A stretch of 64,000 nt of DNA, from NCBI GenBank assembly GCA_033398695.1, contig CM065811.1:119560001-119624000 (forward strand). Direction: 5' to 3'. The translations under genes were made by a program, and so were the position numbers. Of this stretch, positions 3,158-63,989 are shown piece by piece (position 1 is the stretch's first letter; every line of letters begins with the position of its first letter). The notes beneath the pieces were generated by a model. It saw only the letters and a list, made by a program, of their open reading frames with translations, was not told the DNA's origin and did no database searches. The DNA comes from Orobanche coerulescens. Its lineage: Eukaryota; Streptophyta; Magnoliopsida; Lamiales; Orobanchaceae.

Positions 3158-3535
3158 TTATAAAACTTCAGAAAGTTGGACTTCTGGCCAGGTCTCTGTA
3201 ATGAAGTCCACAACATCAAAAGATATGTCACCCTGAACATTAATTTGCTTCTTTCCAGTTGGTTCCTGAGATCATTCAAACCATATGAATAGTAATCTTA
3301 CTACCAAAAAGGAATGTCATATTGCCAAAAATAGTACCTTAACAAAGGAGGCCCCTATAGCAAACTTTTACCAAACTTATCAGAAGCATCGGTAAATTTG
3401 ACACCTGAAACGTTATAGCATAACTTAACAATGCCAGTATGCACCACTGTAAATGCACATATATATGTATGTCGAAGCCACAACAACTTTCTTACCAAAA
3501 AGTTCCAGCCCTTTAACAATTATAATACTTTTCCT
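3158..3535 (-). pseudogene. DENR (density-regulated protein, SUI1 domain) fragment
   Basis: Three consecutive minus-strand exons match plant DENR, a SUI1-domain factor that works with MCT-1 in ribosome recycling and re-initiation. The first exon ends at 3496 with IIIVKGLELFG before a GTAAG donor. The second, 3404-3338, is preceded by TTTCAG, starts GVKFTDASDKFGK and holds KFAIGASFVK in a shifted frame before a GT donor. The third, 3265-3158, follows CTCAG and reads KKQINVQGDISFDVVDFITE before a premature stop. The conserved ending of the SUI1 domain is absent and exon 2 has a frameshift, so it is not functional. Keeping introns excludes a processed copy. It lies upstream of, and in the same orientation as, the bHLH fragment. 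Confidence 0.82.
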
Positions 3536-4692
3536 TTTTTTTTTTTTTGCGTGTAACCCTTTTAATAATATCCTCTGGTTTCTCCTGTGAAAATTAGAAG
3601 TCCAGACAACATTAGTTGTACTTATATCTACCTAAATCCACTAATTGCTCAAGTAAGGAACGAAGAATCTAATAAACATTCATAGGGTTTTTAAGTGCCC
3701 AGTAAACCGACTGTCCCAATATTCCTCTTATGGGAGGTACAAGTATGTATCCAATCAGTCACTAGGAACCATATAGAATCCAGTCTCGTTATGTTATGTA
3801 ATATTGCAATCTGCCCAGATTTCTGCAGATTTATAATTCTGCAGGTTTTGGATTCTGCAGTTTTTCTGTTTTCAGGATTTTATTTTGTCTACAGATTCTG
3901 TTCTCTTCATTAGGTTCTGCATTTTATTGCATTCCCTATGATTTTCTGGTTTCTGCTCTGTTTTCTGCATTGAAACTGCTCTGTATTTCTGCATTCTGCT
4001 CTGTTTTTCTCAAAGTCAATTACATGTGGGATGTGGCTATGGTTGCAATTGTTTTTCCTTCAATCAACTATTAATTGTTAACTCTAGTTGATCTTTTTAT
4101 TACTCATGTATCAAAAATGTGGCCACGGCTTTAATTAATTTTTGTTTTTCATATATAAGGCTACATATGACAAACATTTACTCTAGGGCAACCTAAAGAT
4201 TGCACTTAGTTTATAGGGCAAATGAAGGTTGCTAAAAAAATCTAACTACAGTTATATTTGCAAAAGTATTTATATTATAATCAATTAAAGTTGAAGCCCA
4301 TTACAGAAATATTAGGTAAGTTTTGTAAAGCGTGGTCCAAGTATAATATACAAATATCTAAAAAATTAATGTAAAAGGAGGGTCAGGTGGTGACAATGGG
4401 AGACTCATCTTCTTCTACTACATATTAAAATTCTACCATTTGATAATTCGTTGCATATATTAATATACGCTAAAAGTTATGACATCTAAGTTTATTGTAC
4501 CGTTTTTGCCAGTAATGGGTGTTCGAAAAATTTGAAAACTTAGTTGTAAGTTTGATTTCATCGAGATCGAGTGAATGATAGTTGAAAATTTTAAATCTAG
4601 ATTTTAGTGTCAGTTATATAATGAATGCTGGAAAAACATGATGAAATACGATCGAAAGTAATATATTTTAGGATCCACAATAATGTTCTTTC
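3536..4692. other. Non-coding stretch with TTCTGCA-rich segment
   Basis: No convincing ORF is visible. Positions about 3820-4015 are a degenerate low-complexity stretch built from TTCTGCA, TTCTG and CTGTTTTCTGC words. The remainder is AT-rich sequence in which I see no recognisable element. Confidence 0.6.
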
Positions 4693-4870
4693 TGTTATAA
4701 AACCGAAATATTATAGAGAGAATTTAGAGAGAGAATAGAGAGAATGATTCTCAGGTATGTTTTTCATTAATAACTGAAGTCCTATTTATAGGAAAATTTC
4801 AGATGGCACAATCGTAATTACATAATTACATCAGGGGTATAATTCACATATTATAATACATTATCTTATT
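4693..4870 (+). repeat. Left copy of terminal direct repeat
   Basis: It starts TGTTATAAAACCGAAATATT, followed by an AGAGAGAATTTAGAGAG-type purine block, then TTTTTCATTAATAACTGAA and ACAATCGTAATTACATAATT. The segment CCTATTTATAGG could be a TATA element. The copy at 10478-10630 shares these blocks in the same order with small deletions. Confidence 0.75.
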
Positions 4871-5099
4871 ACGCACTACGAGAAGTGCGCATTTCAACGA
4901 TTCTTAACACTCCCCCTTGAATGACTATTTACATAAATATTTGTTGAACTAGTTTGAAGAAAAACCTAATGGGAGAAAAACTCTCAAACTGTTTGTATTG
5001 GAGCGTGTGACAATCATATCATGTTGCATCATAACGTTGGTAGAAAACCTCTGTTGGATAAAACTTCAGCAATCTGTAATCTCGTAAATTTGCTCCCCC

Positions 5100-5745
5100 C
5101 TTATCTTGATAGTTCTTTTATGAGTATTCTTGTGTCGTCTCAGTAAAACCTCGTGGGACAAAAACTGAGTGAATCTGTCATGTATGTCATTCATTATTGG
5201 AGTATCCACGTGTTGCCTCATTAAAACCTTGTCAAGAAAACTCAGTGGGAAAAAACTTGATCGAAGGAAAAAGAGTACAACTACCCCTTCTGTTTTTAAA
5301 TCTTTGAGTAATAATCTTGATCTTTATAATTTTCCTCATTATGCCATGAATATGCCTCGTTAAAATCTTATTAGGAAAAACCCAATGGGAAAAATCATAA
5401 CGAAGGGAAAAGAGTACATTATTCATACTAATACGCCATTCGTGTTGCCTCATTAAAAACCTTGCTAGGAAAACTCAATAGGACAAACCTCAGTCAAGGG
5501 AAAAAGAGTGCAACGCATATTTTATAAATATGCCCCAGGCATTTCAATAATCCTCCAAGGATTAGTACGACTATCGTATTCAGTGCAATTTGTAATTCCG
5601 CACTCATATTCTTTGCAGTACGTTTCAAATCTCTTTGGAGATTCCATATTAGTTGTGATTAAGCTGCCTCGTTAAAAACCTTGCTAGGAAAACCCAGTGG
5701 GATAAAACCTCAGTCAAGGAAAAGAGTACAGCATATAATTTCCTT
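5100..5745 (+). repeat. Dispersed ~65-bp direct repeats in leader
   Basis: Four clear copies of a block that starts GCCTCRTTAAAAMCTT, continues GGAAAACYCARTGGGA and ends AAGGAAAAAGAGTACAAC lie at about 5215, 5355, 5446 and 5666, with a partial copy near 5141. Spacing is irregular (about 90-220 bp), so this is not a simple tandem array. Between copies the text is AT-rich with no long ORF. Confidence 0.85.
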
Positions 5746-6873
5746 TCACAACGCCTTATTTTGGGTTATTGCGCGCACTGATAATACTTTTAGAATCTCT
5801 TCAGGAGTCACTTTCAGTAAGCCCATATGTTTCATTTTGTTATAAGGGCATATATTTCAATTTTGATGAATTTCAATATCCTCATTTCCAATATCCATAT
5901 TTCACAATCATGGATTTCAATATCCTCATTTCATTCATAGCATTGTATTGTGTCGACAATTTCAACATTTATTTCCTGTAGCAACATAACTTGCCGAGAT
6001 ATCTCATTATCTTCCTTTATAGTTATGTCTATATACTTCAAAAGTATATGCCTCCTTTTATCATTTACTTTGATTTATATTCGGGAAATTATTATGTATT
6101 TATCAAAGCAGTTGTAGTTGGTACCAAAGATTAATAATTTATCATTGTGAGGATATAGTGTGATGCATTTCACATATTTCCAACTGCTAATACTCCCCCT
6201 CATGCTAAGAGATTTCTTGAGCACCAAACTCATATGCCAGTACCTCAGTATTCATCTTCAGTCATGGGGATTATATATTATGTTCTCGATATTGGCAGGA
6301 GGACTTCGAATAGTATGCCAATTAACATCCCACTTGTATGCGCATATCTTGATCCTTTATGGGATCTATTCAAGTTTATTTGGGATATATTACTAGCTTA
6401 ATCTGATATGGAATATATGCTCCAACCATGAGCAAATCATCTCGTAAATTTCCGATTACGAGTCATATACACATGTGACTATCTAGTGGATCCATAATAT
6501 CTAGTAGTTCACATATAGAGGAAGTGGGCCCATACTCCCCCTTAATATATTCTAAATTTATTAGGAATTCATTTCCAATATTGGCTAGTAGTGATATTAT
6601 TCGAGAACAAATATTTGAAGACATGATGTGTCTATATCACCATATAGATATTTTACCGACATATCACATCATCTTTCAGTGCCATTATTGCACATCACTA
6701 TCAACATGGAGTCGCTGCTCCCACATGTCATTTTATGTTCATTATTCAAATATAGAACCGTAGTTCATATGCTTCGGGATATGAATTATTCAAACGCGGA
6801 GTCAAACCTCATACGCGTAATTCCAATCTATAAATAGATTAGCATTGTATTCACAATCACCCATATCGAGGGC
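5746..6873 (+). other. Long leader with only short ORFs
   Basis: About 1.1 kb upstream of the NABP-like ORF. Short ORFs of 60-80 codons occur (for example 5769-5981, 6160-6396, 6524-6763), but none shows a recognisable domain. CATAT-rich words and inverted repeats are frequent. A long leader with upstream ORFs is seen in several retro- and pararetro-elements; here that is only an analogy. Confidence 0.5.
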
Positions 6874-7425
6874 TTGATTATCATAATGGATTCAATGCTT
6901 TCTAGTCTTCGCAAATATTACCCATCTCTTCCAGTGAATATCATAAAAAGAATTTATCGAGCTCGACTCGAAGGATTAAGGGTGCTAATGAGGAATGGCA
7001 TCCCAGAAGATATTCGATGGTTGATCGAAGCACAAGTTCGATTATCTGGCAAATTTTTAAATTCATTTAAGTACATTCCAGGTACAGGTAGGAGTAATTT
7101 TGCAAAGAAACGGAGAGCAAAAAGATTAGGTGGATGCTATAAATGTGCTCGGTGGACATGTGACATACGGTGCAAATCGGTGGGGTTTGTATCCAAAAAT
7201 CGAGAAGATAAAATCGCATTTATCAAGGATGGATTGAGTAAGGAATCTATGGATCACGATATCCAACAGATTCTTGATACACATCCCAGTGGATACGTTC
7301 ATCGTGAACTATTGGCTCTGTGGACACAATGTAAGGATGAACTGGAACACTATAGTCATGAAAAATTAGCCTCAAAAGATCCAGTTTGTAAGTCCGTTCT
7401 GTCAAAGTTGGTACAAGGTAAATAG
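6874..7425 (+). CDS. Carlavirus-type nucleic-acid-binding (cysteine-rich) protein homologue
   Basis: This is an intact 183-codon ORF. The centre (about residues 70-110) carries GTGRSNFAKKRRAKRLGG followed by CYKCARWTCDIRC, a basic stretch next to a C-x2-C-x4-C-x3-C cluster. Carlavirus NABPs (Pfam Carla_C4) and their relatives have the same GRSxxAxKRRAxxxGxC order, an arginine-rich nuclear localisation/RNA-binding segment next to a zinc-finger-like motif. The viral proteins bind nucleic acid, affect silencing and in some species act in the nucleus on host transcription. Residues 1-65 and 115-183 are longer than the viral protein and unrecognised. The preceding in-frame methionine at 6886 is an alternative start. 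A 284-bp spacer separates it from the LOG-like ORF on the same strand. The intact frame beside a broken neighbour is notable. The motif match is clear; virus ancestry is inferred. Confidence 0.6.
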   Translation: MIIIMDSMLSSLRKYYPSLPVNIIKRIYRARLEGLRVLMRNGIPEDIRWLIEAQVRLSGKFLNSFKYIPGTGRSNFAKKRRAKRLGGCYKCARWTCDIRCKSVGFVSKNREDKIAFIKDGLSKESMDHDIQQILDTHPSGYVHRELLALWTQCKDELEHYSHEKLASKDPVCKSVLSKLVQGK

Positions 7426-7709
7426 CAAAATAATGCAAGTTTATGAATATTGTTCTCCAATATTTAAATTTTTCAGCTGCCGATAGATAACGTCATTTCC
7501 ATTGAAAATATAATATCATTTCTTTCGTTTTCTTCTGCAATTTTGTCAAAAAGAAAATAGTAAAAGCAGTGACTTATCTGCTGCTCATTTTTCAATGAAA
7601 ATAGTGAAGTCATTTGTCTTCTAGTAAGAAGTTTGTTCTTTAAATTTGGGATCCACAAATCAAAAATTGTATATCTCATAAAAATACTTTGAAAATCTAG
7701 TGTAGAGAG
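7426..7709 (+). other. Spacer between NABP-like and LOG-like ORFs
   Basis: AT-rich, non-coding. A minus-strand ORF here shows no domain. No obvious intron signal links the two ORFs. Confidence 0.5.
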
Positions 7710-8376
7710 ATGGAGTTCTCAGAATCCTCATACAGATCTCATCCAATTAAAACCATATGTATTTTAGGTGGATCCAAACTGATAGGTCATATCCAGCATA
7801 TAGATAGGTCATATCAGTTCGTAAAAGAATTAGGAAAACACAAAATCGATATATTGTATGGTGGGAGTAATCATAGATTTTGGGTTATCTTTTAGAGGAT
7901 GCACAAAATAGGAGAGTAAGAGTAACAAGTGCCTCACACTTTCCCACAGTTAGAACCAGTAGTATAGGAGGTTCAACTGGGTTGATGCTTCAAGCACAGT
8001 CTGTGCATGATAGTATGATGTATATGGTGAATAATAGTGATGCCTTTATTGTTCTTCCAGGTAGTTATGGCACACTCAATGAGATTTTCAATATCACGTC
8101 ATGGGCTGAGTGGGACTTCCATACCAAACCTATTGGTTGTTGAATATTAATAATTTCTTCAACGATTTGCTTGCCTTTCTGGATCAAGGAGTAGATCACA
8201 AGTTTATCTCTCAACCATCAAGAGATATTATTATATGTGCTGATACAGTTGTTGATCTACTTATAAAGTTTCAGGCATATATTTCAGTTAAGAATTTGGA
8301 AGTCAAAGCTCATCAGCCACTGACTATTGGTGTCAAACGAAAAAGAAGTTTAGATCCTTTAGATCTTTCATTATAA
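7710..8376 (+). pseudogene. LOG-like cytokinin riboside 5'-monophosphate phosphoribohydrolase, frameshifted
   Basis: Three overlapping frames (7710-7895, 7880-8143, 8110-8376) together cover about 222 codons, the usual size of plant LOG proteins. In order they show a Rossmann-like start (KTICILGGSK), KIDILYGG, then SDAFIVLPGSYGTLNEIFN matching the LOG signature PGGxGTxxE, then KPIG and LLNINNFFNDLLAFLDQG and a C-terminal helix. LOG enzymes release active cytokinin base from the nucleotide. The catalytic glutamate of the signature is kept. The second signature glycine is serine, and the conserved MHxRK segment before it reads VHDSM, so the catalytic arginine appears lost. The C-terminus has a basic KRKR. 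Frame breaks lie near 7870-7890 and 8140. Activity is unlikely as it stands. Family assignment is firm; how it joined this element is unknown. Confidence 0.8.
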
Positions 8377-8859
8377 ACCCTAATGTCAGGGGGTGGCAGA
8401 GTTACGGAGTTTTATACTCTCGAGACGCACCCCTTTTTATGGGTTTCATATGTATTTTCTTTTCGCGTTTCATATTGTCGAGTGTTTACTGCATTTCGGC
8501 TAGTTTCGATATTTTTTACTTCGACTACTTTGTGCTTCTTCCAGAGTAATAATATGATCACCTTTTGCCTTTATGCAAATACACTATTCTCACGAATATG
8601 TGACATATGATTCTCCATGAGCATTGTCATATCAATATGATTTCATATGGTCTCACCATGACATATAATCAACATGAGATTTATTGACCAATTATTTTCC
8701 AGTGATAGTTTCCGATATCACTTTTCAGATGATCCCACCATGCAGTGTATTTGCATGGGATTTTTTTTAATTTGATCGATTATAACTTCTGGTATCGCTT
8801 GCTCAATTTTCTCTATTCGCATTTAATAATCATGGAAATCGGATATTATTTCTATCAAC
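8377..8859 (+). other. 3' region after LOG-like ORF
   Basis: No recognisable coding sequence. It is rich in CATATGA and TCATATG words around 8600-8700. Confidence 0.45.
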
Positions 8860-9030
8860 TGCTTCTTCTTTCGAGAGTAGGATTTGAATCATTGATCAAC
8901 TACTTCTTCATAGTAGGATTTATTTCTTTCAACTGATTCTTCAAGAACAGGATTTAAATAATTGATCAACTATTTCTTCAGAGTAGGATTTATTTTTATC
9001 AACTGCTTCTTTGGGAGCAGGATTTATGAA
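8860..9030 (+). repeat. Degenerate tandem repeats (ATCAACTGCTTCTT...AGCAGGATTT)
   Basis: Three to four imperfect copies, each starting with TCAACT(G/A)CTTCTT and ending with a GAGYAGGATTT-like word. A further copy (AACTGCTTCTTCTGGAGCAGG) lies near 9490. The best copies can form a short hairpin because CTGCT pairs with AGCAG. Confidence 0.75.
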
Positions 9031-9091
9031 CCATTCACATGGAATAACCAACCATGATGGTGGTATATAATATATATAAATTGCATATATG

Positions 9092-9400
9092 TAAAACCAT
9101 TCGTCTTGTGATAATTGAACTCATCACATAGGAGGTACAGTAAATATATAAAACCGTCCGTCTTGTGATAATTGAACTCATCACATAGGAGGTATAATAA
9201 ATATGTAAAATCATCCGTCTTGTGATAATTGAACTCATCACATAGGAGGTATAATAAATATGTGAAACCATCCGTCTTGTGACAATTATATTTATCATAT
9301 AGGAGGCATCGTCATCCATCTTGTGATAATTAAACTTGTCACATAGGAGGTATCACCATCTATCTTGTGGTAATTAATTATCATATGAGAGGTATAGTAA
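9092..9400 (+). repeat. 57-bp tandem repeat with internal hairpin, ~6 copies
   Basis: CGTCTTGTGATAATT recurs at 9102, 9159, 9216 and 9273, an exact 57-bp period. Two shortened 44-bp units follow, at about 9317 and 9361. Each unit holds TGTGAT and ATCACA separated by about 10 bases, so each can form a stem-loop. The minus-strand ORF over this array only reflects the repetition. Confidence 0.9.
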
Positions 9401-10477
9401 TATTTACATAATGTAAGCTCAACAAATAGATGGTTTCAACCACCACTTGGAGAAAAATATATAAAGTCAGGAATTAGATTAGTAAATATTTAACTGCTTC
9501 TTCTGGAGCAGGTTCATCCAACCATTTTCTCCAAGTATAATCAAGTGGTATTAGGTTGGATGATTAAAAGTCATCATCAACCCCAATTGTCGGCATCAAT
9601 GCCACTTGGCCGTCCCGTAATATTACACATACCATTTTGTAAATTTTCGCAGAACAGGGATATATATTCACAAGTCCTTTAATTTTTCAAAATTATGGTA
9701 CTAATTCGTACATTTTAATAAGTTTTGATAATGATAAATATTAAAAGAATTATAATCAACATATTAATATTAGTGTCAAATTGAAGCTCTCGTAAAATGG
9801 ATCATGACGGTGTCAATAAAAATTAATTCCGATATCATATGTATCATGTAAGAAAAACGAATATATAATTTAATAAATTAAAAGAATATTTTACTCTTTT
9901 ATATATTATTTATTTATTCTTACCATCATCCTTTTCTTTCCTTTTGCCACTTTCTTCGTCTCTTCATTGTTCTTCACAATTTTTTTTGTTGTTGTTTACG
10001 GCTGTTCTTATCTTAGGTGGTTCCAAACAGCTTCGCAATCTTATCCCTTTTTTTTTTGTTTGTCCCTTTTTTTTTTCAGCCATTATCTCTATTTTTGTTT
10101 CTGTGGTTTTTTTTTCGTGGAGTAATACAAGGATACAGAAAATATTAAAATAAACGTTTACCTGATGGATGCAAACTGTTTCCGCTTGGTCAAACGTCTC
10201 TCCTGTTGTAAAAAAAATCATCGCCTCCAACAGCATCACCATACTCACGGTGCAGACTCCTCTTATCGACGTGATCAGTGGTGGAAGCAGAGCATTTATT
10301 CAGGAGGATCCGGAACTATAAAAATTACGGAGATCGGATAACTATATATATAGTTTTTTCTATTTTATAAGGAAATTTCTATCCATTTGAAGTCAGTGGC
10401 CATGCCTCCTCCTCCGCCTGGACGTGAGGGAAAAGTAATGTCTTGGAGTTATACCATGTTGAAATTCTTTAGTAATG
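9401..10477. other. Non-coding 3' part of the element
   Basis: AT-rich with a pyrimidine-rich block near 10030-10120. I see no domain-bearing ORF. Confidence 0.45.
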
Positions 10478-10630
10478 TGTTATAAAACCGAAATATTATA
10501 GAGAGAATTTAGATAGAGAATAGAGAGTGATTCTCATGTATGTTTTTCATTAATAACTGAATTCAGATGATACAATCGTAATTACATAATTACATGAGAG
10601 TTATAATACTCATTCACGTATTATAATACG
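10478..10630 (+). repeat. Right copy of terminal direct repeat
   Basis: It repeats the left terminal sequence (4693-4870) from TGTTATAAAACCGAAATATT through ACAATCGTAATTACATAATT in the same orientation, then diverges after about 10630. About 20 bp of the left copy around CCTATTTATAGG is missing here. Confidence 0.75.
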
Positions 10631-10640
10631 TATTATACCA

Positions 10641-11589
10641 CTTTCTTAGATTATCAAAGAGGTGAACCATAACACTGCAATTCCAGTATCTGAGGACGGA
10701 AGAGAGTTTTACTCGAATCGCACTTCCATTCTCTTCTTTTTTTTCAACCCAGGGTATACTTGTAGACTTCACCATTAATTATTAGAGTTACCAAAATTAG
10801 GTTTCTTAGTATTGAAATGCACCTTTACTACTAGTCGTCTTAGGGTAACAATGCAATATGAGATCTGGTGTAGCCGTTGTGATTTAAGCAGTTTTAGGAC
10901 TAAGAATCCTTATTCTCCAGAATAAGAGGACCATATGCTAAGTTCTTAGAAAAGGTAAAAAGAAGACCAGATGTGCAAACTTATATAGTTCTATTTCAAG
11001 TCTCATTAGCAACAAACACATTTTTAATTAAGATCCTCCAATTTTCTATATTTTGAGGATTCTCGGAAACGAAACTCAAGCTCCAATCTCTGTTTTAGGG
11101 TTTTAATAGCGATGAGTTCAACATTTGATCATTTTTTTAACTTCGATAATTTATAAAATTATAATGTCCTGAAACTATTAATTTACAGTATATAGTTTTG
11201 TTAACCAACCATAGTAAAGTTAGTAGGGTTACTAAAATACTCCCCACTTTAGATTGTTTGCTTAAATGGATATATTGTTCACATGTGGTTTATGTTTTTG
11301 TAGGGAACTGGAGCAATACTTAATTTACTTTTAAAATCTCCCTAATATTTTTGATTAAATTACAATAGTCGTGATAGATAGTTTATAGTTATATACTGTT
11401 AGTCTAATATAAATCTGTAGGTATTTTCATGGTATATTATCAAGTAAATATTTTTTGAATAGCAGCCATAATTTTTATTTATTTATTTATGTGGTTGATG
11501 ATATATGTAAAGGTTACCTTATTTTTTTGTTGTTGCACAATCGATGTATAATCTTGTCCTCATTACATGGTTTTGTTTCTTATCTGCAG
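10641..11589. other. Intergenic / putative 5' UTR and intron of the membrane-protein gene
   Basis: No ORF of note. It ends in a good splice acceptor (TTATCTGCAG at 11580-11589) just before the ATG of the next gene, so at least its last part may be an intron following an unseen non-coding first exon. Confidence 0.5.
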
Positions 11590-13036: not shown

Positions 13037-16000
13037 TAGACGTGCTGCCGGGCCGGAACCGCCGGTTTCGGGCCTCGAACCGGCGGTCCTCGGTCCCCAA
13101 AACAAGGGACCGAGCCCGGCCCGTAAACTTGCCCGGCCTCCCGTGCCGGGCTAGAAACCCGCCGGTCCAGAGCCGGGCTAAAACCGGCGGTCCCGGGCCG
13201 GGCCGCCCAGTTTTTTTTTTTTTTTTTAACTTTTATTATTATTTTTTTATTTTATTCTTGTATATTTATTACTTTTATGAATAGAAAATGATAATTCTTA
13301 ATGTTTTGATTTTTTTTTTTAAATATTTAAAAACTCATTAAATTGTTGAAAAATGAATAAGGAAAATTATAACAAATAAGTTTGCATTAAGAAAGAGGAA
13401 AATTACAAATTAATAAGGACACAATAATTTTGCAAATAAATAAGGACAATAATTTTGCATTAAAAATGAGGAAAAGTACAACAAATAAGTGAAGCACAAT
13501 TTAAGAAGTTTTACACTTGAATTCTTGAAATGAAAAAATAATAATACTAAAGGACTTGAGCTCTCTACTCCACATCCGATCGATCCGTCTCGGTGAAGGC
13601 TTCATCTTCGCTCTCATTTGCATCGTCCCATTCCGGTTCTTGAGCTCTAAGGTCGGTCCTACACCAATCGTCGAGCAACATGGTAGCTTCAATGTTCGCC
13701 GGCTTCATCCTTGATCTTCTTTGATCTAGCATAAGTCCTCCGATGCTAAAGGCTTGTTCTACGGACACGGTGGATGCCGGGACGGCAAATAACTCCTTTG
13801 CAATGATGGAGAGTATTGGGTACTCCTCTCTCTTCGACCACCACTTTAACACATCGATCGACGGACCACTATCTTCAACACCAAATACAAAACGAGTTTG
13901 CAAGAACATATCTAATTCACTATTACCTTGCCCCATTGGAAGTTCATTGCTTCTATTTTGCATCATTCCATGCATTTGTTGAACTAAAGGATCACTTTCA
14001 TTCATCTCAAAAGGAAAATCACATGAAGGCATCATAGATGAAGGCATTGTAGAAGAAGGAAACTCACTACCATGTTTTAATCTATATTCTTGAAAAATAG
14101 ATCTCAAACTCCTATCAAGATCTATCTTGATTTGTGGCACGGAAGGAAGATCAAAGAAGACCCTTCACCATCAATTACAACATCACTCAAGTCCATTTGA
14201 GCAAAAGCATCATAATAAATACCAAGCATTTGACAAACACCATCATACTTCCATTTAGGATCTAAGCACTTAGCAAGTAAGAAAACCATAGGAATCTCCC
14301 TAAAATACTTGAGCCATTTTTGAACCATAAAATAAATCACACCTTGCATGTTTGGCCTACTAAAACAACTCTTAAAAGACAAGGCAATATACATGCAATG
14401 TTCCAACACTTTAACGGAAGTACAATAATAAACACCCGATAATTGTTTAGTAGCATTATGAAAAACTTTTAACAAACGATACAAATCCATACATGAATCC
14501 CAATGACTCTCATTAAGAACTAATTGCATGTTTGAGAACTCTTTCCTAAAAAATCGCATAAATAACTCTTATACTCTAGTGTACTATTAATCATCTCATA
14601 AGTAGAGTTCCAACGATGAGATACATCTAATTTGAAACAAGTATAAACAATACCCTTTGCACGACAATATTTTTGCCATTTTTTCCCCAATGTTTTTGAT
14701 TTGTGCAAATACTTAACGACATTTTTAATAGGAACAACGGAATCTTGAAAAATACTAAGCGCATCTTGAACACATAAATTTAAAATATGACAAATGCATC
14801 TAGAATGAAAATATTTTCCTTCAAATGATGGTGCACATGCTTCAACAAGTTCCGGAATACTAGCGGTGTTCGCCGATGCATTATCAAAACCAACGGAAAA
14901 TACCTTGTTAACCAAACAATACTCATTTAAAACCGTAATAATAATTAAAGCAATATTTTGAGCCGTGTGAGGCTCTTCAAACTCCCTAAAGGCAATCAAA
15001 CGTTTTTGCATAATCCATTTTGCATCAATCCAATGACAAGTAATTCCCATGTAACTATTTTTATTATAAGCATCGGTCCAAACATCGGCACAAATAGAAA
15101 CTTTTTGAGACAAACGAACTAAATATTTCATTAAATCTTGTTTTTTTGTCAAAGCATTGTCTCCTAATTCTCTTAAGCATTTGAGTTCTAGCTACCTTGC
15201 TAACATTAGGCCCCAAACCATCTTTATAAGAAGCTTCATACGTTATTCTATCCGCATAATTAAAAGGTTGTTTTTCCATGGCACAATATCTAGCACAAGC
15301 ATCTTCATATCGATTTAATTCAAATTTAAATAAAGCGGAAGAAGACATACCCGTCGCCGAATTTGAACTAGTAGTACCTCGAATTTGCGTTTGAGTAGTA
15401 GATATTCCATACTCGAATGGATGAAACCCCTCCATGTGCCTTTGTAGTGTTCCGTAGCCTCCCTTCTCGATCCATTTGTAGTGCTTTGTGCAATAGTTGC
15501 AATAAGCAATGAATCTCTTTCGACCATCGGATAAAGGAGGTTCTCCTTCGTTGATAGGAGCCAATTCTCTTTTAAAATGTTTAACGAAGATTTCGGACTT
15601 GAGAGGCTTAGGCTTACTTGTTGGCGGAGGAGGAGGTTGGTTTTGTTCGTCTTCTTCGTGCTCTTCGTCCTCTTCATGTTCATCATCATTTGTTGAGCCA
15701 CGAAATTCGTATCCCGTGCTCTCCATCGTATGAACCATTTCTTCAAATCGGGCATCTTCTTCGGCTTGAATTCGTTCGGCGACTTGTCTAGAAATTTTCT
15801 CCGCCAAATCGGCCCTTCTAGGCCTTTGAGTTTGAGGTTGAAAATTTCCTCCTCCACTTCGTTGGCCAAGTTCAATGGCCTTGCCCTTGCCCTTGTTAGT
15901 GTTATTCTTTGAGGTAGACATAGAGATAGTAAATAGAGAGTATAGTAGAGAGAGTAGAGATTGAATTTTTAGAGAGAATTAGAGTGTGATTATTGGTGAA

Positions 16001-19617: not shown

Positions 19618-21785
19618 CCAAACTAAACATACCCAGTATATCCCGCACAGAGCAGGGTCTGGGGAGAGTAAGATGTACGCATACCATGCCCCTACTTTTT
19701 CCGGTAGGGGGATGTTTCCGTGAAAACCTTCAGCTTAGTGCACAACAAAGTAATAAGTGATATATACAAAAAAGCATATGATTCGAAAAAGCTCAAAACC
19801 ATATCTGAGCCCATGACCTAATTCACATGAGATTTACCTAAGGGACTTTGGCAACTACACTCTCGATGAACGCTGCTCTAACAGAAGAGAGGTTGACTCT
19901 GCGCACAGCTCCCTGTAGAAAATACACCACACGCAAAAGACAATAGGATAAAATATGCAATAAGAGTAAAAGTAAAAAATGCAATGCTCTAGGCCAAAGC
20001 AAACCGAGACAACCCAACCCTGAGACTCTCTACTACAGCACCGCTCCCTACCAAAGAATCCACAACTCTGATCGGACGCCTCCACGAGCACCTATCCACA
20101 GTCATGGTCTCGGAAAGGTTTAAGTCCTTCAAATCTAATCTCACTTGCTCCTCTCACGTCCTCCTCGGTCTGCCTCTCCTCCTCCCCTAGACAACCAATA
20201 AACTCTGGACCCTCCTCACCGGAGCAGATGCCTGCCTCCTGCGGACGTGGCCAAATTATCTCAATCTCCCTTCCCTAACTTTCGCAGAAATTGGCGCCAC
20301 TTCTAGCGCGTTCCTGAAAACCCCGTTCGAGATTCTATCCAACATTGACCTCACGACCAACGTAACATTCTCATTTCAGCAGCTTCCAACTTGCTCTCAA
20401 GCGATTTCTACATCGCCCAACATTCGGAGCCATACAACATTGCAGGTCTGATTGCCACTCTATAGAATTTACCCTTTAACTTTAGAGGGACTTTCTTGTC
20501 GCACAGGACTCCTGTCGCTGCTCTGCACCTTAGCCACCCCGCCTTGATATGATGAGTGACATCATCTTCACACTCACCTTCCTTCTGAATACTCGAACCC
20601 AAATAGTTGAACTTATCCGTACGGGGTACGATTTGATCCGCAATCATTACCTCTACTTCTTCCTCGTTGGCCTCACCACTAAAGTTACACCAGAGATACT
20701 CGGTCTTAGACCGGCTCACACGCAAGCCCTGAGATTCTAACTTAGACCTCCACAGCTCCAACTTCGAGTTCACCTCCCTCCTCGGCTCCGCCACTAACAC
20801 AATATCGTCAGCAAAAAGCATGCACCACGGGATGCCATCCTGTATCCCCCACGAAATGACGTCAAGGATTTGAGCAAAGAGAAGAGGGCTAAGCGCCGAC
20901 CCCTGGTGTAGCCCTACCTCAACCAAAAAATACTGGGCGTCATCAACTGGGGTTCTAACGCAAGTCCTAACTTGGGAGTACATGTCTTGGATCGCTCTAA
21001 TGAACGGCAACGACACCCTCCTCTCTTCTAGGCTCCTCCAAATAACATCGCGCGGAATGCTATCATAAGTCTTCTCTAGATCAATACACCATATGGAGAT
21101 CCTTACGCCGCTCTCTAAACTTCTCCATAAGGCGTCTGACGAGATGAATGGCCTCAGTCGTGGACCTCCCCGGCATGAAGCCAAATTGGTTCTCTCAGAT
21201 CTCAACTTCTCTTCTAACCCTGCATTCCACCACTCTTTCCCAAAGTTTCATAGTATGACTGAGGAGTTTAATACCCCTATAGTTACGACAACTCTGAGGA
21301 GGATGTTGAACTCTGCTGGCCACTAAACTCCAACTTCCCCCAGACAAAGCCACACCTCAATATGGATCTGATATGGGCCTATAGCCTTAGCTCTACCCAT
21401 TTTCATTAGGGCACCCTTTACTTCCTCCTTGCTAATGCTTTCAGGAACTAAACGAATGAGCAAAAGATAGACTAACTCCTTGCACCACCGAGTCGCTTCC
21501 CCTAGCCTCATTGAAAAGGTCAAAAAAATACCTATTCCACCTCTCCTTAATAGCCACATCGTTTACTAAACTTGATCAAAATCATCCTTAATAAACTTAA
21601 CGGGGCCCAGGTCGCGCCGCCCTCTTTCCCTAGCTTTCACTAGTTTAAAAATAACATTCGCTCCTTCTTTTGTGTCTAGGCGCTTGTACATCTCCTCGTA
21701 TGCTTCACCTTTAGCCTTAGCCACTGCCTTCTTAGCCTTTCTTTTCACCACCTTGTACGCTACAATCTTCAAGATTCTCTCCTCT
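19618..21785 (-). mobile_element. RTE-type LINE, 5'-truncated by Athila insertion
   Basis: The minus-strand remnant runs from a 3' end near 19618 to 21785, where the Athila LTR starts abruptly. The 3' end (GGGTATGTTTAGTTTGG on the minus strand) and about 500 bp of 3' sequence are shared with the second copy at 47508-48133. The RT region is at 20408-21772. The 5' part with the endonuclease lies beyond the Athila element and is not in the window. Confidence 0.85.
20408..21772 (-). pseudogene. RTE LINE reverse transcriptase, broken
   Basis: In order, 21772-21566 is a basic helical linker typical of the region between endonuclease and RT, and 21559-21323 holds KEEVKGALMKMGRAKAIGP, the RT entry motif. 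21205-20408 carries ISIWCIDLEKTYDSIPRDV, GLHQGSALSPLLFA, the catalytic LFADDIVLV (YADD-type box) and FNYLGSSIQKEGECEDDV, a clear RTE signature. The end at 20408 (LYGSECWAM) runs out of frame; thumb-domain remnants continue to about 20100. Non-LTR RTs copy their own RNA at a nicked target. Several frame breaks make this copy dead. Confidence 0.9.
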
Positions 21786-34035: not shown

Positions 34036-35877
34036 TTATGATATGCTTGTGGAGCATCCGTTGATTACGCCTTCGAGTGGCCATTGGTTCCACTGTCTCG
34101 AATAGTAGAGTTGCGGGGGCGGAATTGCAGCCTTCGGTTTTCTCGGTACAGCAGGTTCCTTTATGGGACTAGGAGTATCTTCCGATTCTGGAATGTGTTC
34201 CACACTCTTGACGAACACTGTACTAGTTTTCCCTTTGTTAGAACATGAGCTGTATCCTAAGCCACTTTTATCATGAGCATGTTGCCCAGTGCTCAGAATT
34301 TCTTCCATTCTTTTGGACGATTTTTCAAAAGACTTCAGAATGGTCTCAAGTTCAGTTTCTCGCTTTTCGAGAGTTGTGATTTTGGTTTGTAATAGAAACA
34401 AATCATTTGTCTTGCTCTCATTGTGGGTTTTAACCTCATTTAGTTCATGAGCAAGTTGATGATTGCTCTCCATGAGTTTTTCAAAATCGACCTTGCTGGT
34501 TTCACAATCAAGAGACATATTTTCATAGTTTATTTTCAGCAAGTCATTCTCATCTTTCATCTCTAAATTTGTTAATTGAACCTGTATATTCTCAGTTTTT
34601 AGAGTCTCATGGGCCTTTTGAATGTTTTTAAACTCATTCATCATATTTTCGAAAGTATGAGATGCATTAGATGGAATAGCTGAGGTTGAACTTACCTCAT
34701 CGTCGCTGTCTTCACCTTCTGGAACATCTTTGGCCATAAAGCACATGTATGCTTTATCATCGAATTCATCGTCAGATGAATTACTTTCAGTGAACACCTG
34801 AAGACATTCTGCTGATTTGGATGGAGTGGGGGAGGCTTCTGATTCTCCAATCAGGGCCTTGAGCTTGTCTTTCCAAGCACGTCTTCTTTCATCTCTCTCT
34901 TGTTGCTCGGCCTCAGGCAATCTTTGGACTTTAGGATGAGGACATTTGTTTGCATAATGGCTCGGTTTCCGCAGATTATAGCACGAGTTAGCATCACCGA
35001 GATGATGTTTGGCATTTACCTTGTGGACAGTTTGGGCACGTAGGAGTCTTTCCGCATCGCTTTGATGAACTTTTGAATTTATGCATTAGAAGCGCCATTT
35101 CATCTTGGGACGGATGTCGCTGCCATGTCGGCATTCTTATGATCTGGCTTGACGAGCTAGGCATCTTTGTGTCGGCTTCGATACGGCCGAGAGTCATTAC
35201 CTTTGAAGGAGATTCTTGACTTTCTCTCTTCACAATGTCATACTCAAAAGCTTTGAGGTCGAGAAGAGATCAAAAGTGGATATTTCATTAAGATTACACG
35301 ATACACGCATAGTGGTCTTAATGTCCCATCGGCCGAGAGATCTGAAAATTTTTAAGTTCTTCTCCTTTTGGGTGTAAATCTTGCCCAACGCTTCAAGTTC
35401 ACCAACAATACCAGTAAATCTGAGGTCAAGTTCCTCAAGTGTTTCCGTTGGTTTCATTTCAAAGGATTCAAATTGCTGAGTTAGTTTTGAAATCTTGTTT
35501 TCTTTTGAGAGCTCAATTCCCTCACAAATTAACTTGAGTTTATCCCAGATTTCTTTGGCTGTTTTGCAGCTCTTTACCTTTGAGAACATGCCTTTGTCAA
35601 GAGTGATAAATAACGCGTTCTTAGCCACGTTGTCGAGATTGGCTCGCTTCCTTTCATCTGTTGTCCATTGCTCGCGTTCTTTCTCGAGCATTTCAGCATG
35701 GGCTTGGCCCTCAATCCTTGCGGCCGGATTGACCTTCATGATCTTGATAGGACCATCCTGTATAACAAAAATCATCTCTTCGTGCATTGCTGCAAGATGA
35801 GCTTCCATTCTAATTCTCCAGTCGTCAAATTCGTTAATAGAGAACATAGGGACTTTGTTAATCATAGAAGTATCCAT
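34036..35877 (-). pseudogene. Copia gag of element 1
   Basis: 35877-35230 is the gag core (MDTSMINKVPMFSINEFDDW, IWDKLKLICEGIELSKENK, TLEELDLRFTGIVGELEALG). 35233-34994 is a shifted-frame middle piece. 34920-34036 is a long coiled-coil C-terminal part. A CCHC knuckle is expected near 34930-34990; GDANSCYNLRKPSHYA-like coding is visible there only in broken form. SIRE gag proteins are unusually long, as here. Confidence 0.82.
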
Positions 35878-48995: not shown

Positions 48996-50070
48996 TCCGG
49001 CCCAGTATAAATGTGACAGAGCAGTCACATTTCCTCTCGTTTTTCATTTCCTTCCTTTTCTTTCCGCGACTGGCGATTCGGAGGTGGCGAAGCCATGTTT
49101 TTTAACAACAAATCCATGAAGTTCTTGAGTTCATAACATGAATCAATCATTCGTTATCATCCTTTGATCCAGCGAATCAAGGTAATCTTCCTTAGAACCC
49201 TAATTTCGTGAATTTGGGGTTTTTTGTATTTTTGTCCGATTCGTTCCGTGTTGTTGATTAATTCATGATGGGTATGATTAATCTTGGTAGTATTCTTGTG
49301 TTTAACATCATTTAATCCATTGTTCTTCGTCGAATCGAAGTATATTTCTTGATTTCCTTCGAATCGACTTTTTGGGGGATTTGTTCTCGATCTCGTTTTC
49401 CATCCGTTTTTGTTGGATAGATTGTGGTTAAATGATGTTGTTAAACATATTCTATGGATTGTATATCCATATTTCGACTTGGAATTCCATTTTCGTGTTT
49501 TGTCGGTACGAATCGTGTTCTTGGCCGTTTTGGGGAAAACACTTGAACTTTCGTCATTCGTTCTTTGAATTCAATGGCTTTGAGTCGTGTTATGGAATTC
49601 ATTTCATTTTTGTTCTTGTCCTTCGTAGTTTATGACTGCGAGTTGGCATTCAGTGGAGACGGCGGGTTCTTAGTCGGTTCGTGTCAACCTATTTCGGTCG
49701 ATTCTCCGCGTTGTTCTTATTCGAGGCAAGTACCTTGTCCATACTATTCTTGTTTTGTGGATATGATGATTGGTGATCATCTTGGTGTGTTTGTTTGTTT
49801 GTTTGAAATGAGTTTTCAAAAGAATTGGTTAGCCTTGTTAAAGGCCCTCTTTCAAAACCGTGTGTGTTTTGTGATTGGTGTGATTCGTGAACGAGTATGT
49901 GAATCTTATGGACATGTTTGGTGTTGATGATGCACTTGGTATTTGCGTGTGGACGTATATTGTTTCATTTCGGTGCATTGTGGTTTGACGTGTTGTTTTA
50001 CTAAGTGTTTGATGCCTCTGGGTGAATTGTTTGGATATCCTTGGTGTGATATGTTACTCGTGCTTGAGTT

Positions 50071-50690
50071 TGATTCGCTAGCCAGCTCGGGAGGGTCCTC
50101 CGAGGCCTCGAGTGGGATTCGTGGCTTCGTCCCGGTCCTAGGTGACGTGTGGTGCTTGTGTTGTTTTGTGATATGTTATTTGTGCATGATTGATTCGCTA
50201 GCCAGCTCGGGAGGGTCCTTCGAGGCCTCGAGTGGGATTCATGGCTTCGTCTCGGTCCTAGGTGACGTGTGCTGCTTGAGTATTTCGCTAGCCAGCTCGG
50301 GAGGGTCCGACGGGATCACGGAGTGGGATTTGTGGCTTCGTACCTGTCCTAGGCGATGTGAGTACGTGTTTTGTGAATGTGTTTGCTCACCTCGGGAGGG
50401 TTCGACGGGACCACGGAGGGAATTCCAATGGCTTCTACCTGGGTTCACGAGTGAAACTTCACCGCTACGTGTATATATTTTGTGATTGTTTTTCGCTCAC
50501 CTCGGGAGGGTCCGACGGGATCACGGAGGGAGTCCAATGGTATAGCCCTGGATTCACGAGTGCGGTTGCTTATGTTTTGTGAATGTGTTTGCTCACCTCG
50601 GGAGGGTTCGACGGGGCCACGGAGGGAATTCCATTGGCTTCGACCTGGATTCACGAGTGAAACTTCACGGGTGCGTGTGTATTTCATGTC
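50071..50690 (+). repeat. Six tandem units (~90-120 bp) in LTR A
   Basis: The core CTCGGGAGGG recurs at about 50086, 50206, 50296, 50391, 50501 and 50597, each followed by GTYCGACGGG or TCCGAGGCC-like text. ORFs across it (for example 49943-50485) reflect the repetition and are not taken as genes. Confidence 0.9.
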
Positions 50691-61727: not shown

Positions 61728-63989
61728 TCAGCTTGCTTCTGTACTAGATTCCCAATCTAGTAGACCAAGATCTCTGCTCAGCTCCAAAAACCTTTCTTCT
61801 GGCAAAGGTTTGGTAAAGATGTCAGCTATCTGATAGTCTGTGCTGACTCTTTCAACTCTAACTCTTTTGTTAAGCACATGGTCTCTGATGAAGTGGTGCT
61901 TAACATCAATGTGCTTCATCCTTGAATGCAAAACCGGATTGTTGGTTATTGCAATAGCACTATTGTTGTCACACCAGATAGGAACTTCATTGGCAATGAT
62001 ATTATAATCCCTTAGGCCATTATCGATCCATAAGATCTGTGCACAACAGCTACCTGCAGCTAGGTATTCTTACTCTGTGGTGGAGATAGAGTTAGAAACC
62101 CGCTTCTTGCTAAACCAGGATATCAGTCTGGTTCCTAGGAATTGGCACGTTCCACTAGTGCTTTTCCTATTGATTTTGCATCCTGCGAAATCTGCATCTG
62201 AATATCCTGACAGCTCGAAGTTGTCATCCTTGGGATACCATAGTCCAACATTGACTGTAGACTTAAGGTATTTTATTATCCTCTTGGCTGCATCTAGGTG
62301 TGATTGCTTCGGCTTGGACTGGAATCGTGCACAAACTCCTACGGCATAATTATGTCTGGCCTGCTTGCAGTGATGTACATAAGTGATCCAATAAGTCCTC
62401 TATAGTGGGTTGAGTCCACAGATATTCCTGCCTCGTCTGCATCTAAGTAGTGCTTGTGCTCATAGGGATTCTTGCTGGCTTGGCTGATTCCATTCCATAT
62501 CTCTTGATCAGATCTTTGGTATACTTGGCTTGGTTGATGAAAATTCCTTTTTCCATCTGCTTAACTTGTAGTCCGAGAAAGAAGTTAAGCTTTCCCATCA
62601 TACTCATCTCAAATTCTCCTTGCATGAGGTTGGAGAATTTCTTGCATAACTCTGGATTGGTTGAGCCGAATATGATGTCATCCACATATATCTGGACTAT
62701 TAATATGTGGCCTTCGTGCTCCACTCTGAATAGGGTCTTGTCCACCTTCCCTTTGCAAAAACCATTCTTCTCAAGAAACACAGACAATGTTTGATACCAC
62801 GTTCTTGGTGCTTGCTTAAGTCCATAGAGAGCCTTCAACAGCTTGTAGACTTTGTCTCCTTTGACAAAACCTGGGGGTTGCTCTACATAGACTTCTTCTT
62901 CTAGGATGCCATTTAGAAAAGCACTCTTTACATCCATTTGATAGACTTCAAAATCTTTGAATGCAGCATATGCGAGGAATAGTCTGATGGCCTCTAATCT
63001 TGCAACGGGTGCATAGGTTTCATCAAAATCTATTCCTTCACATTGTGCATACCCTTTTGCTACAAGTCTGGCTTTATTCCTAACAACAACTCCGTCTTCA
63101 TCACTCTTGTTTTTGTACACTCATTTGGTGCCAATAACCTTCTTGTGATCAGGTCTGGCTGTTAGTTCCCAAACTTTGTTTCTTTCCATCTGCTCCAGTT
63201 CTTCTTGCATGACATTTATCCAAGAATAATCTTCTAGGGCTTGTTCTATTGTCTTGGGTTCAATCTGTGACATAAAGCATGAGAACATAGCCATTCCTGC
63301 TGGTAGAGTTGACTGTATTGTCTTGACTCCATCAATCAGCTTTCCAATGATTTGCTGGATTGGGTGATCTTTGAGCCACTTGGGGATATCATCTTCTTCT
63401 GGGTCTGTTCCCCCTGTTGGATTGCTCTGGTTGATTTCTGCATCAATTTGGGTTACGTGCCATTGGATCAGCTACCGTCTTGTCATCTGCAGCTTGGGTC
63501 TGATCTGCAGATGAGTCTTTATCAGCCACAGCTGGGTCTTCATCAGCGGAAACTGGATCAGATAGGTTTGGTGATCCTTTCTAATCTGCAGTTGGGTCTT
63601 GGCCTCTGATTGAATCTTGGTGAGTCTGCAGGTGAGTCCACCATTCCAGTGTCATGTACAATGACTTCTTCAAGGGTTGCTGATTTTAGCTTGTTCTCAA
63701 TTAACTCAACTTGCTTCCTGTAGTCAACAGTATATTCATCAAAAACAACATGGGGTGTTTCCTCCACAACTAAGGTTCTTTTGTTAAATACTCTATATGC
63801 CTTGCTTCTTTGTGAGTATCCCATAAAGAGACCGTCATCAGTTTTAGCATCAAAGGCATTTAGTTGTGTTTTATCGTTGTTGTGGATGAAACACTTACAA
63901 CCAAAAACATGAAAATAAGCAACAGTAGGAGTTCTATTATTCCAAACCTCATAGGGAGTTTTGCCATGTCTCCCTACTATCATACTCAT
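61728..63989 (-). pseudogene. Copia pol of element 2 (integrase end, RT, RNase H), partial
   Basis: 63989-63558 is the integrase C-terminal region (HGKTPYEVWNNRTPTVAYFH, FGCKCFIHNNDK, GLFMGYSQRSKAYRVFNKRT). The RT follows with a frame break near 63120. 63120-62443 includes [51 protein letters not shown], the catalytic [10 protein letters not shown] and FFLGLQVKQ. RNase H ends at 61931-61728 with KHIDVKHHFIRDHVLNKR and ADIFTKPLPEERF. Intact over long stretches, so younger or better preserved than the pol of element 1. It runs off the window. Confidence 0.9.

Follow-up and report, generated by a model that had tools for sequence, protein, structure and literature searches.

A 64,000-nucleotide stretch of the Orobanche coerulescens genome (assembly GCA_033398695.1, contig CM065811.1, positions 119,560,001 to 119,624,000, hereafter the window) contains, side by side, a gene for a carlavirus-type nucleic-acid-binding protein (NABP) and a gene resembling those for the plant LOG enzymes, which are cytokinin riboside phosphoribohydrolases. 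Most probably the region represents an old, non-autonomous member of a high-copy long terminal repeat (LTR) retrotransposon family, in which the NABP-LOG pair is an accessory module and not a chance pick-up.

The nature of the element was read from four sister copies, inspected in 10-kb stretches. Three of them (L040, L041 and L043) have both LTRs, 95.6-97.7% identical within a copy, with TG...CA ends and perfect 5-bp target-site duplications (GCTTT, GGGTT and GATGG, respectively), whereas for the fourth, L042, a single LTR was seen within the stretch. A polypurine tract and a primer binding site adjoin the LTRs, as in LTR retrotransposons. All three copies align to the window across the gene pair, and their duplications enclose the pair. 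The sequence-only reading of this DNA was therefore correct in placing both genes in one mobile unit bounded by repeats, and the complete copies with the same ends that it proposed to look for do exist. Its viral unit turned out to be an LTR retrotransposon instead, as judged from the LTRs and the target duplications. The parts of the window copy are as follows.

4693..10674, minus strand: whole LTR element, old non-autonomous copy (LTR pair; same parts in L040, L041 and L043)
4693..4909, minus strand: 3' LTR in the element's own sense (homologous to the LTRs of L040, L041 and L043)
4910..4919, minus strand: polypurine tract CAAGGGGGAG (minus strand), adjoining the 3' LTR (sequence; equivalent position in L040, L041 and L043)
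5033..5733, minus strand: 37-73-bp motif present as four to five imperfect copies within the element's 3' part (repeat families D3-D5)
6829..6836, plus strand: TATAAATA box before NABP, possible antisense promoter (position in 29 of 30 loci; the promoter role is putative)
6886..7425, plus strand: NABP, intact open reading frame (ORF) from the ATG at 6886 to the stop at 7425, 179 residues (ORF and Pfam matches)
7388..7767, plus strand: putative intron GTAAGT...TTTTAG linking NABP to LOG (fused public gene models P0074, P0125 and P0130)
7710..8373, plus strand: LOG-like gene split over three frames by two shifts, one near 7880 and one near 8137 (alignment to P0121; PF03641 on the pieces)
9087..9306, no strand: 57-bp tandem repeats, 3.9 copies, within the element
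10464..10477, minus strand: decayed primer binding site, which reads CGTTATCAGCACGA in L040 and L043 (homology of the decayed stretch judged by eye)
10478..10674, minus strand: 5' LTR in the element's own sense

The two direct repeats reported earlier, at 4693-4909 and 10478-10674, were recovered in the same orientation and are 84% identical over 191 aligned bases. Their Kimura two-parameter distance of 0.176 corresponds to about 6.8 million years at a substitution rate of 1.3e-8 per site per year, and the same rate gives LTR ages of 0.9-1.6 million years for the three sister copies and one copy of the gypsy type described below. In the window copy a matching target-site duplication is no longer present and the primer binding site is decayed. 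These signs of decay, together with the 84% identity, would suit a reading in which the gene pair was inserted independently between the remnants of two LTRs that have nothing to do with each other. Such an insertion is very improbable, and it was rejected, given three coherent sister copies that align to the window across the pair and enclose it within matching duplications.

The primer binding site of L041 is CGTTATCGGCACGA, as against CGTTATCAGCACGA in L040 and L043. The primer binding site appears complementary to what we take to be the anticodon arm of tRNA-Ile, inosine 34 being read as G. No tRNA was reported by ARAGORN in the window or in any of the loci examined, and nothing relevant to half-tRNA priming appeared among the papers listed by a literature search. 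The LTR and polypurine tract of the window family look copia-like. In the six frames of positions 3501-11498, no Pfam match to gag or pol was obtained at E<=1. NABP and LOG are both plus-strand genes and run antisense to the LTRs.

The intact ORF with a carlavirus-type core, as first noticed, is a genuine member of that protein class: the window protein exceeds the cut-offs of both Pfam families, PF05515 Viral_NABP (E 1.2e-8, 35.7 bits, cut-off 23) and PF01623 Carla_C4 (E 3.7e-6, 27.3 bits, cut-off 20.9), a significant profile match to viral NABPs being what the earlier proposal depended on. Among 16 family members scanned, all matched Carla_C4 and 15 matched Viral_NABP (E<=0.01). In most listed sister copies the protein ends at residue 176. 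A protein search returned 267 matches at E<=10 (top E 2e-104), the closest being 92% identical, from O. hederae. Relatives were found, in elements or as proteins, in Orobanche, Striga, Populus, Rhamnella and many further contigs. A Carla_C4 search gave 27 matches and none in 14 control genomes. No relative was found in the viral-contig collections scanned with NABP, and no match in the sequences of the PDB; a search of PHROGs gave a single match (E 0.048). The predicted structure was too poor for use (mean pLDDT 52.6, pTM 0.28).

The two viral profile matches are what would recommend the view that an integrated fragment of a carlavirus, or of a related plant RNA virus, lies here. No Pfam match to a carlavirus replicase, triple gene block or coat protein, nor any further Pfam domain, was found in the six frames of 3501-11498; moreover, the NABP occurs beside a retrotransposon integrase, and the LTRs, polypurine tract and target duplications belong to a retrotransposon. 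The chance that an RNA virus was endogenised here is practically negligible, and an integrated carlavirus was rejected on the LTR and duplication structure.

Recurrence of the pair had been named beforehand as a test, and the pair does recur. Thirty loci were selected by their NABP (L010-L039, the window included). A LOG match, oriented like the NABP, accompanies it in 29 of them, the exception being L033; in L020, L037 and L038 only an N-terminal piece of LOG was matched. Conversely, NABP lies about 280 bp upstream of LOG in all 12 loci selected by LOG. Of the 150 best-scoring listed LOG matches, about three quarters have no internal stop. Copies are numerous: a genome search with NABP gave 10,476 first-look candidates, of which the 150 best were scored, and every one of these was at least 88% identical. 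In the genome as a whole, 1718 occurrences of the LTR end joined to the primer site were counted, versus zero for the reversed control pattern. This count is not the copy number of the window family, because of two junction loci opened, one (L060) is of the window family and the other (L061) belongs to a different element.

Two features suggest how the pair could be expressed. In 29 of 30 window-type loci, the TATAAATA box stands 51-60 bp ahead of the start of NABP, versus 81 of 3000 random pieces of those loci; since the copies are related, these are not 29 independent events. Three public Orobanche gene models (P0074, P0125 and P0130) fuse NABP and LOG through the putative GTAAGT...TTTTAG intron. 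Its GT and AG are kept in each of the 25 loci that were aligned, the other five of the 30 having been excluded; this is weak evidence because the surrounding DNA is about 92-97% identical anyway.

A second carrier of the pair was found among Ty3/gypsy elements. Four loci from the Carla_C4 search (L003, L006, L008 and L009) have a divergent NABP followed by LOG, and two others (L005 and L007) gave no LOG match. L044, taken together with L047, is bounded by 97% identical LTRs about 1.64 kb long and has a target-site duplication CGGGT and the primer site TGGCGCCGTTGCCGGGGA; this LTR element is non-autonomous and has NABP then LOG, both in sense. In the stretches of L045 and L046 two LTRs were not seen; the LOG of L046 is open over 218 residues. 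The sequence CTATAAATA stands about 85-90 bp before LOG in the four gypsy-type copies inspected.

The link to a polymerase came through L001, which has the rve and H2C2 domains of a gypsy integrase with an NABP about 200 bp after the integrase. L001 is contig DAIEQH010000041.1, binned in a Nomurabacteria metagenome-assembled genome; with its plant-type gypsy integrase and NABP, it is likely plant contamination. Its integrase gave 91 matches of 72-75% identity in the O. coerulescens genome. For 21 of the 91, one of 150 listed gypsy-type LOGs lies 900-1100 bp downstream on the same strand. Within 20 kb, the same 150 LOGs gave six more same-strand pairs at different spacings and no opposite-strand pair. 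The four loci that were opened (L062-L065) all have the order integrase, NABP, LOG, in sense, their LOG pieces bearing stops or breaks. L062 is 88% identical to L044 from the integrase end onwards, so that L044 looks like a derivative. In L066, RNase H domains precede the integrase, with a chromovirus piece between. Integrase after RNase H is the Ty3/gypsy order, and the sister elements are known here from pieces of pol. The primer site TGGCGCCGTTGCCGGGGA and the 1.6-kb LTRs starting TGATAAGTG hint at a possible Athila/Tat lineage. The polymerase-bearing partner anticipated by the sequence-only reading was thus found in part: the pair does follow an integrase in the same genome, but in a sister gypsy family and not in the window family.

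Trees of both proteins separate the two carriers. For NABP, the window family is joined first by Striga (100/98) and next by two further sequences (96/97), and the gypsy-type NABP is placed elsewhere, beside another single sequence (85/87). For LOG, the window family has a long branch (1.57) and pairs with P0146 (100/99); gypsy-type LOGs cluster with those of Paulownia, Rehmannia and further sequences (100/99). The deep forks are weak (70/57). Given these separate positions, the pair of one family is not a recent copy of the other's. The pairing would be either old or have arisen twice.

Selection was estimated from pooled ratios of nonsynonymous to synonymous differences (pN/pS). For NABP, the ratio was 0.42 (bootstrap 5-95% 0.29-0.55) in the 12 LOG-selected copies and 0.24 in the NABP-selected copies, a biased sample. 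The latter copies gave 0.54 for LOG (0.41-0.77 by part). Neutral simulations with the observed transition bias had a mean of 0.80 (60 runs, sd 0.10, minimum 0.63). At the level of sequence variation, this shows that NABP is constrained, and LOG more weakly so.

The most serious competitor to an accessory module is that NABP and LOG are passengers, captured and copied without benefit, their apparent constraint stemming from few recent source copies or from biased sampling. Several observations weigh against our reading, and some directly favour passengers. An aquaporin piece lies in L040 at 7768-8397 on the minus strand (MIP, PF00230, E 4.8e-51), in the element's own sense; it was absent, by tblastn, from every other locus examined and from the window, and therefore passenger genes do occur in the family. 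Among 32 loci chosen without LOG, LOG is strictly intact in only five; NABP is intact in 26 of them, a figure favoured by the way loci were selected. The catalytic Arg is lost in window-type LOGs (see below). In the gypsy-type loci, constraint is weak because pairwise ratios over up to six loci are higher, both for LOG (0.57-0.95) and for NABP (0.25-0.86); three of the four opened integrase loci (L062-L065) have a stop in NABP, and no LOG was found in the 980 bp after the NABP of L001. Finally, the part of L061 examined gave no Pfam match, and hence no polymerase donor for the window family. Against passengers stand the identical order of the pair in two element types, the ratio of 0.42 for NABP in a sample not chosen by NABP versus 0.80 expected, and the 53-65% mutual identity that NABP retains across distant sources. 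On balance we regard the passenger model as unlikely, although it carries appreciable weight, and we retain the accessory module as the preferred reading.

The LOG-like gene had been described as a full-length ORF, and this did not hold. An intact LOG in the window was rejected: with its two frameshifts the gene covers all 222 residues of the relative P0121, spread over three frames, and its pieces match PF03641 with E values of 2.6e-11 and 6.2e-6. The intact relative P0121 aligns over 185 residues (E 2.6e-29) to the plant LOG At2g37210 (PDB 2a33). The residues that we take to be catalytic are the Arg of MHxRK and the Glu of PGGxGTxxE. In the window family, Arg is replaced by N or S in 27 of 27 aligned sequences and Glu is kept in 29 of 29, so that the Arg and Glu of an active LOG do not occur together; in 17 of 29, a D replaces the G of the PGGxGT loop. 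In the list of gypsy-type LOGs (n=120, including non-Orobanche rows), R is present in 102 and E in 111. The earlier suggestion of an enzyme making active cytokinin is thus unlikely for the window family, because the window LOG is frameshifted and the family's LOGs have lost the catalytic Arg, whereas for the gypsy-type LOG active cytokinin release may be possible. Element LOGs end in a basic, leucine-rich C-terminal tail (e.g. KRKLDLSLTL), which might be nuclear or EAR-like.

Large public Orobanche LOG clusters, namely P0242 (328 members) and P0236 (244), resemble the element genes, as do P0145 and P0254; many public gene models are of this kind, some of them named cytokinin-activating enzyme. 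An apparent expansion of the LOG gene family may therefore be an artefact.

We suggest the following mode of action. The NABP-LOG pair would serve LTR retrotransposons as an accessory module. The window family would be copied in trans by the enzymes of another element, and its antisense cassette would be transcribed from a TATA promoter of the cassette itself. As a basic zinc-finger protein that evolves under purifying selection, NABP would serve the element by acting on nucleic acid, perhaps as an RNA chaperone, a nuclear factor or a silencing suppressor, like the related viral proteins. Of the two kinds of LOG, the gypsy type may be enzymatically active in releasing cytokinin, and the window type is probably a pseudoenzyme, retained as a partner of NABP or as a fused domain. 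A bolder version holds that an old, selected two-protein module, made up of a viral-type NABP and of a LOG that releases cytokinin and bears a nuclear or EAR-like tail, drives host cells to division and weak silencing and thereby aids amplification and germ-line entry, that it moved between unrelated element types, and that it shares ancestry with carlavirus NABPs. We hold this full version to be speculative and rather improbable.

NABPs of carlaviruses and allexiviruses (PF01623, PF05515) share the basic zinc-finger core with the window protein (92 residues on the profile), which differs in being encoded by an LTR element and in its conserved flanks, such as NREDKIxFIKDGLSKE. The finger spacing of the family, CX2CX4CX3C, is presumably unlike that of viral NABPs. 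The direction of transfer may also be the reverse, with carlavirus-type NABPs deriving from a plant retrotransposon gene and not the retrotransposon gene from a virus. The occurrence of NABP in elements or proteins of several plants (those listed above) and beside a gypsy integrase speaks for this; we consider it a tentative possibility, well short of an even chance. The pair is relevant to the question of how genes pass between retrotransposons and the RNA viruses of plants.

Extra ORFs, sense or antisense, in the 3' region between pol and the 3' LTR are described for Grande, RIRE2, Retand and PvRetro13 in the available portion of a review (PMC7264820), which also reports an internal promoter of its own for Grande gene23. 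Those ORFs are likewise kept in many copies, but the two extra genes here belong to recognisable families, whereas for antisense extra ORFs the same portion describes no clear protein similarity and notes none to viruses (PMC7264820). Orchid Ty3/gypsy elements with an AlkB m6A demethylase likewise have an added domain known from plant RNA viruses (Betaflexiviridae), although, in the portion of that report available, the protein is another one and LOG is lacking (PMC9289625). Compared with plant LOGs, the element tail is not present in the one full cellular LOG inspected (P0156), and the catalytic Arg is missing in the window type. In the open-access literature searched, including the accessible parts of PMC7264820, PMC11963269, PMC9289625 and PMC11728184, no earlier report of an NABP-LOG pair in retrotransposons was found. 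For most extra ORFs of plant retrotransposons, neither origin nor function is known. The two described here fall into recognisable families, one linked with plant RNA viruses and the other with hormone activation, and the pair travels in two element types. This makes the function of accessory ORFs directly testable.

Elsewhere in the window, a broken hAT transposon occupies 13568-15921 (minus strand) in three separate ORFs, with a hAT dimerisation domain (4.6e-20) and weak matches to an RNase-H-like domain and a BED finger. Three minus-strand ORFs resemble, by eye, a LINE reverse transcriptase (20408-21205), a copia gag (35230-35877) and a copia reverse transcriptase (62443-63120). A 120-bp tandem repeat (50045-50278, 1.9 copies) lies within an open frame at 49943-50485.

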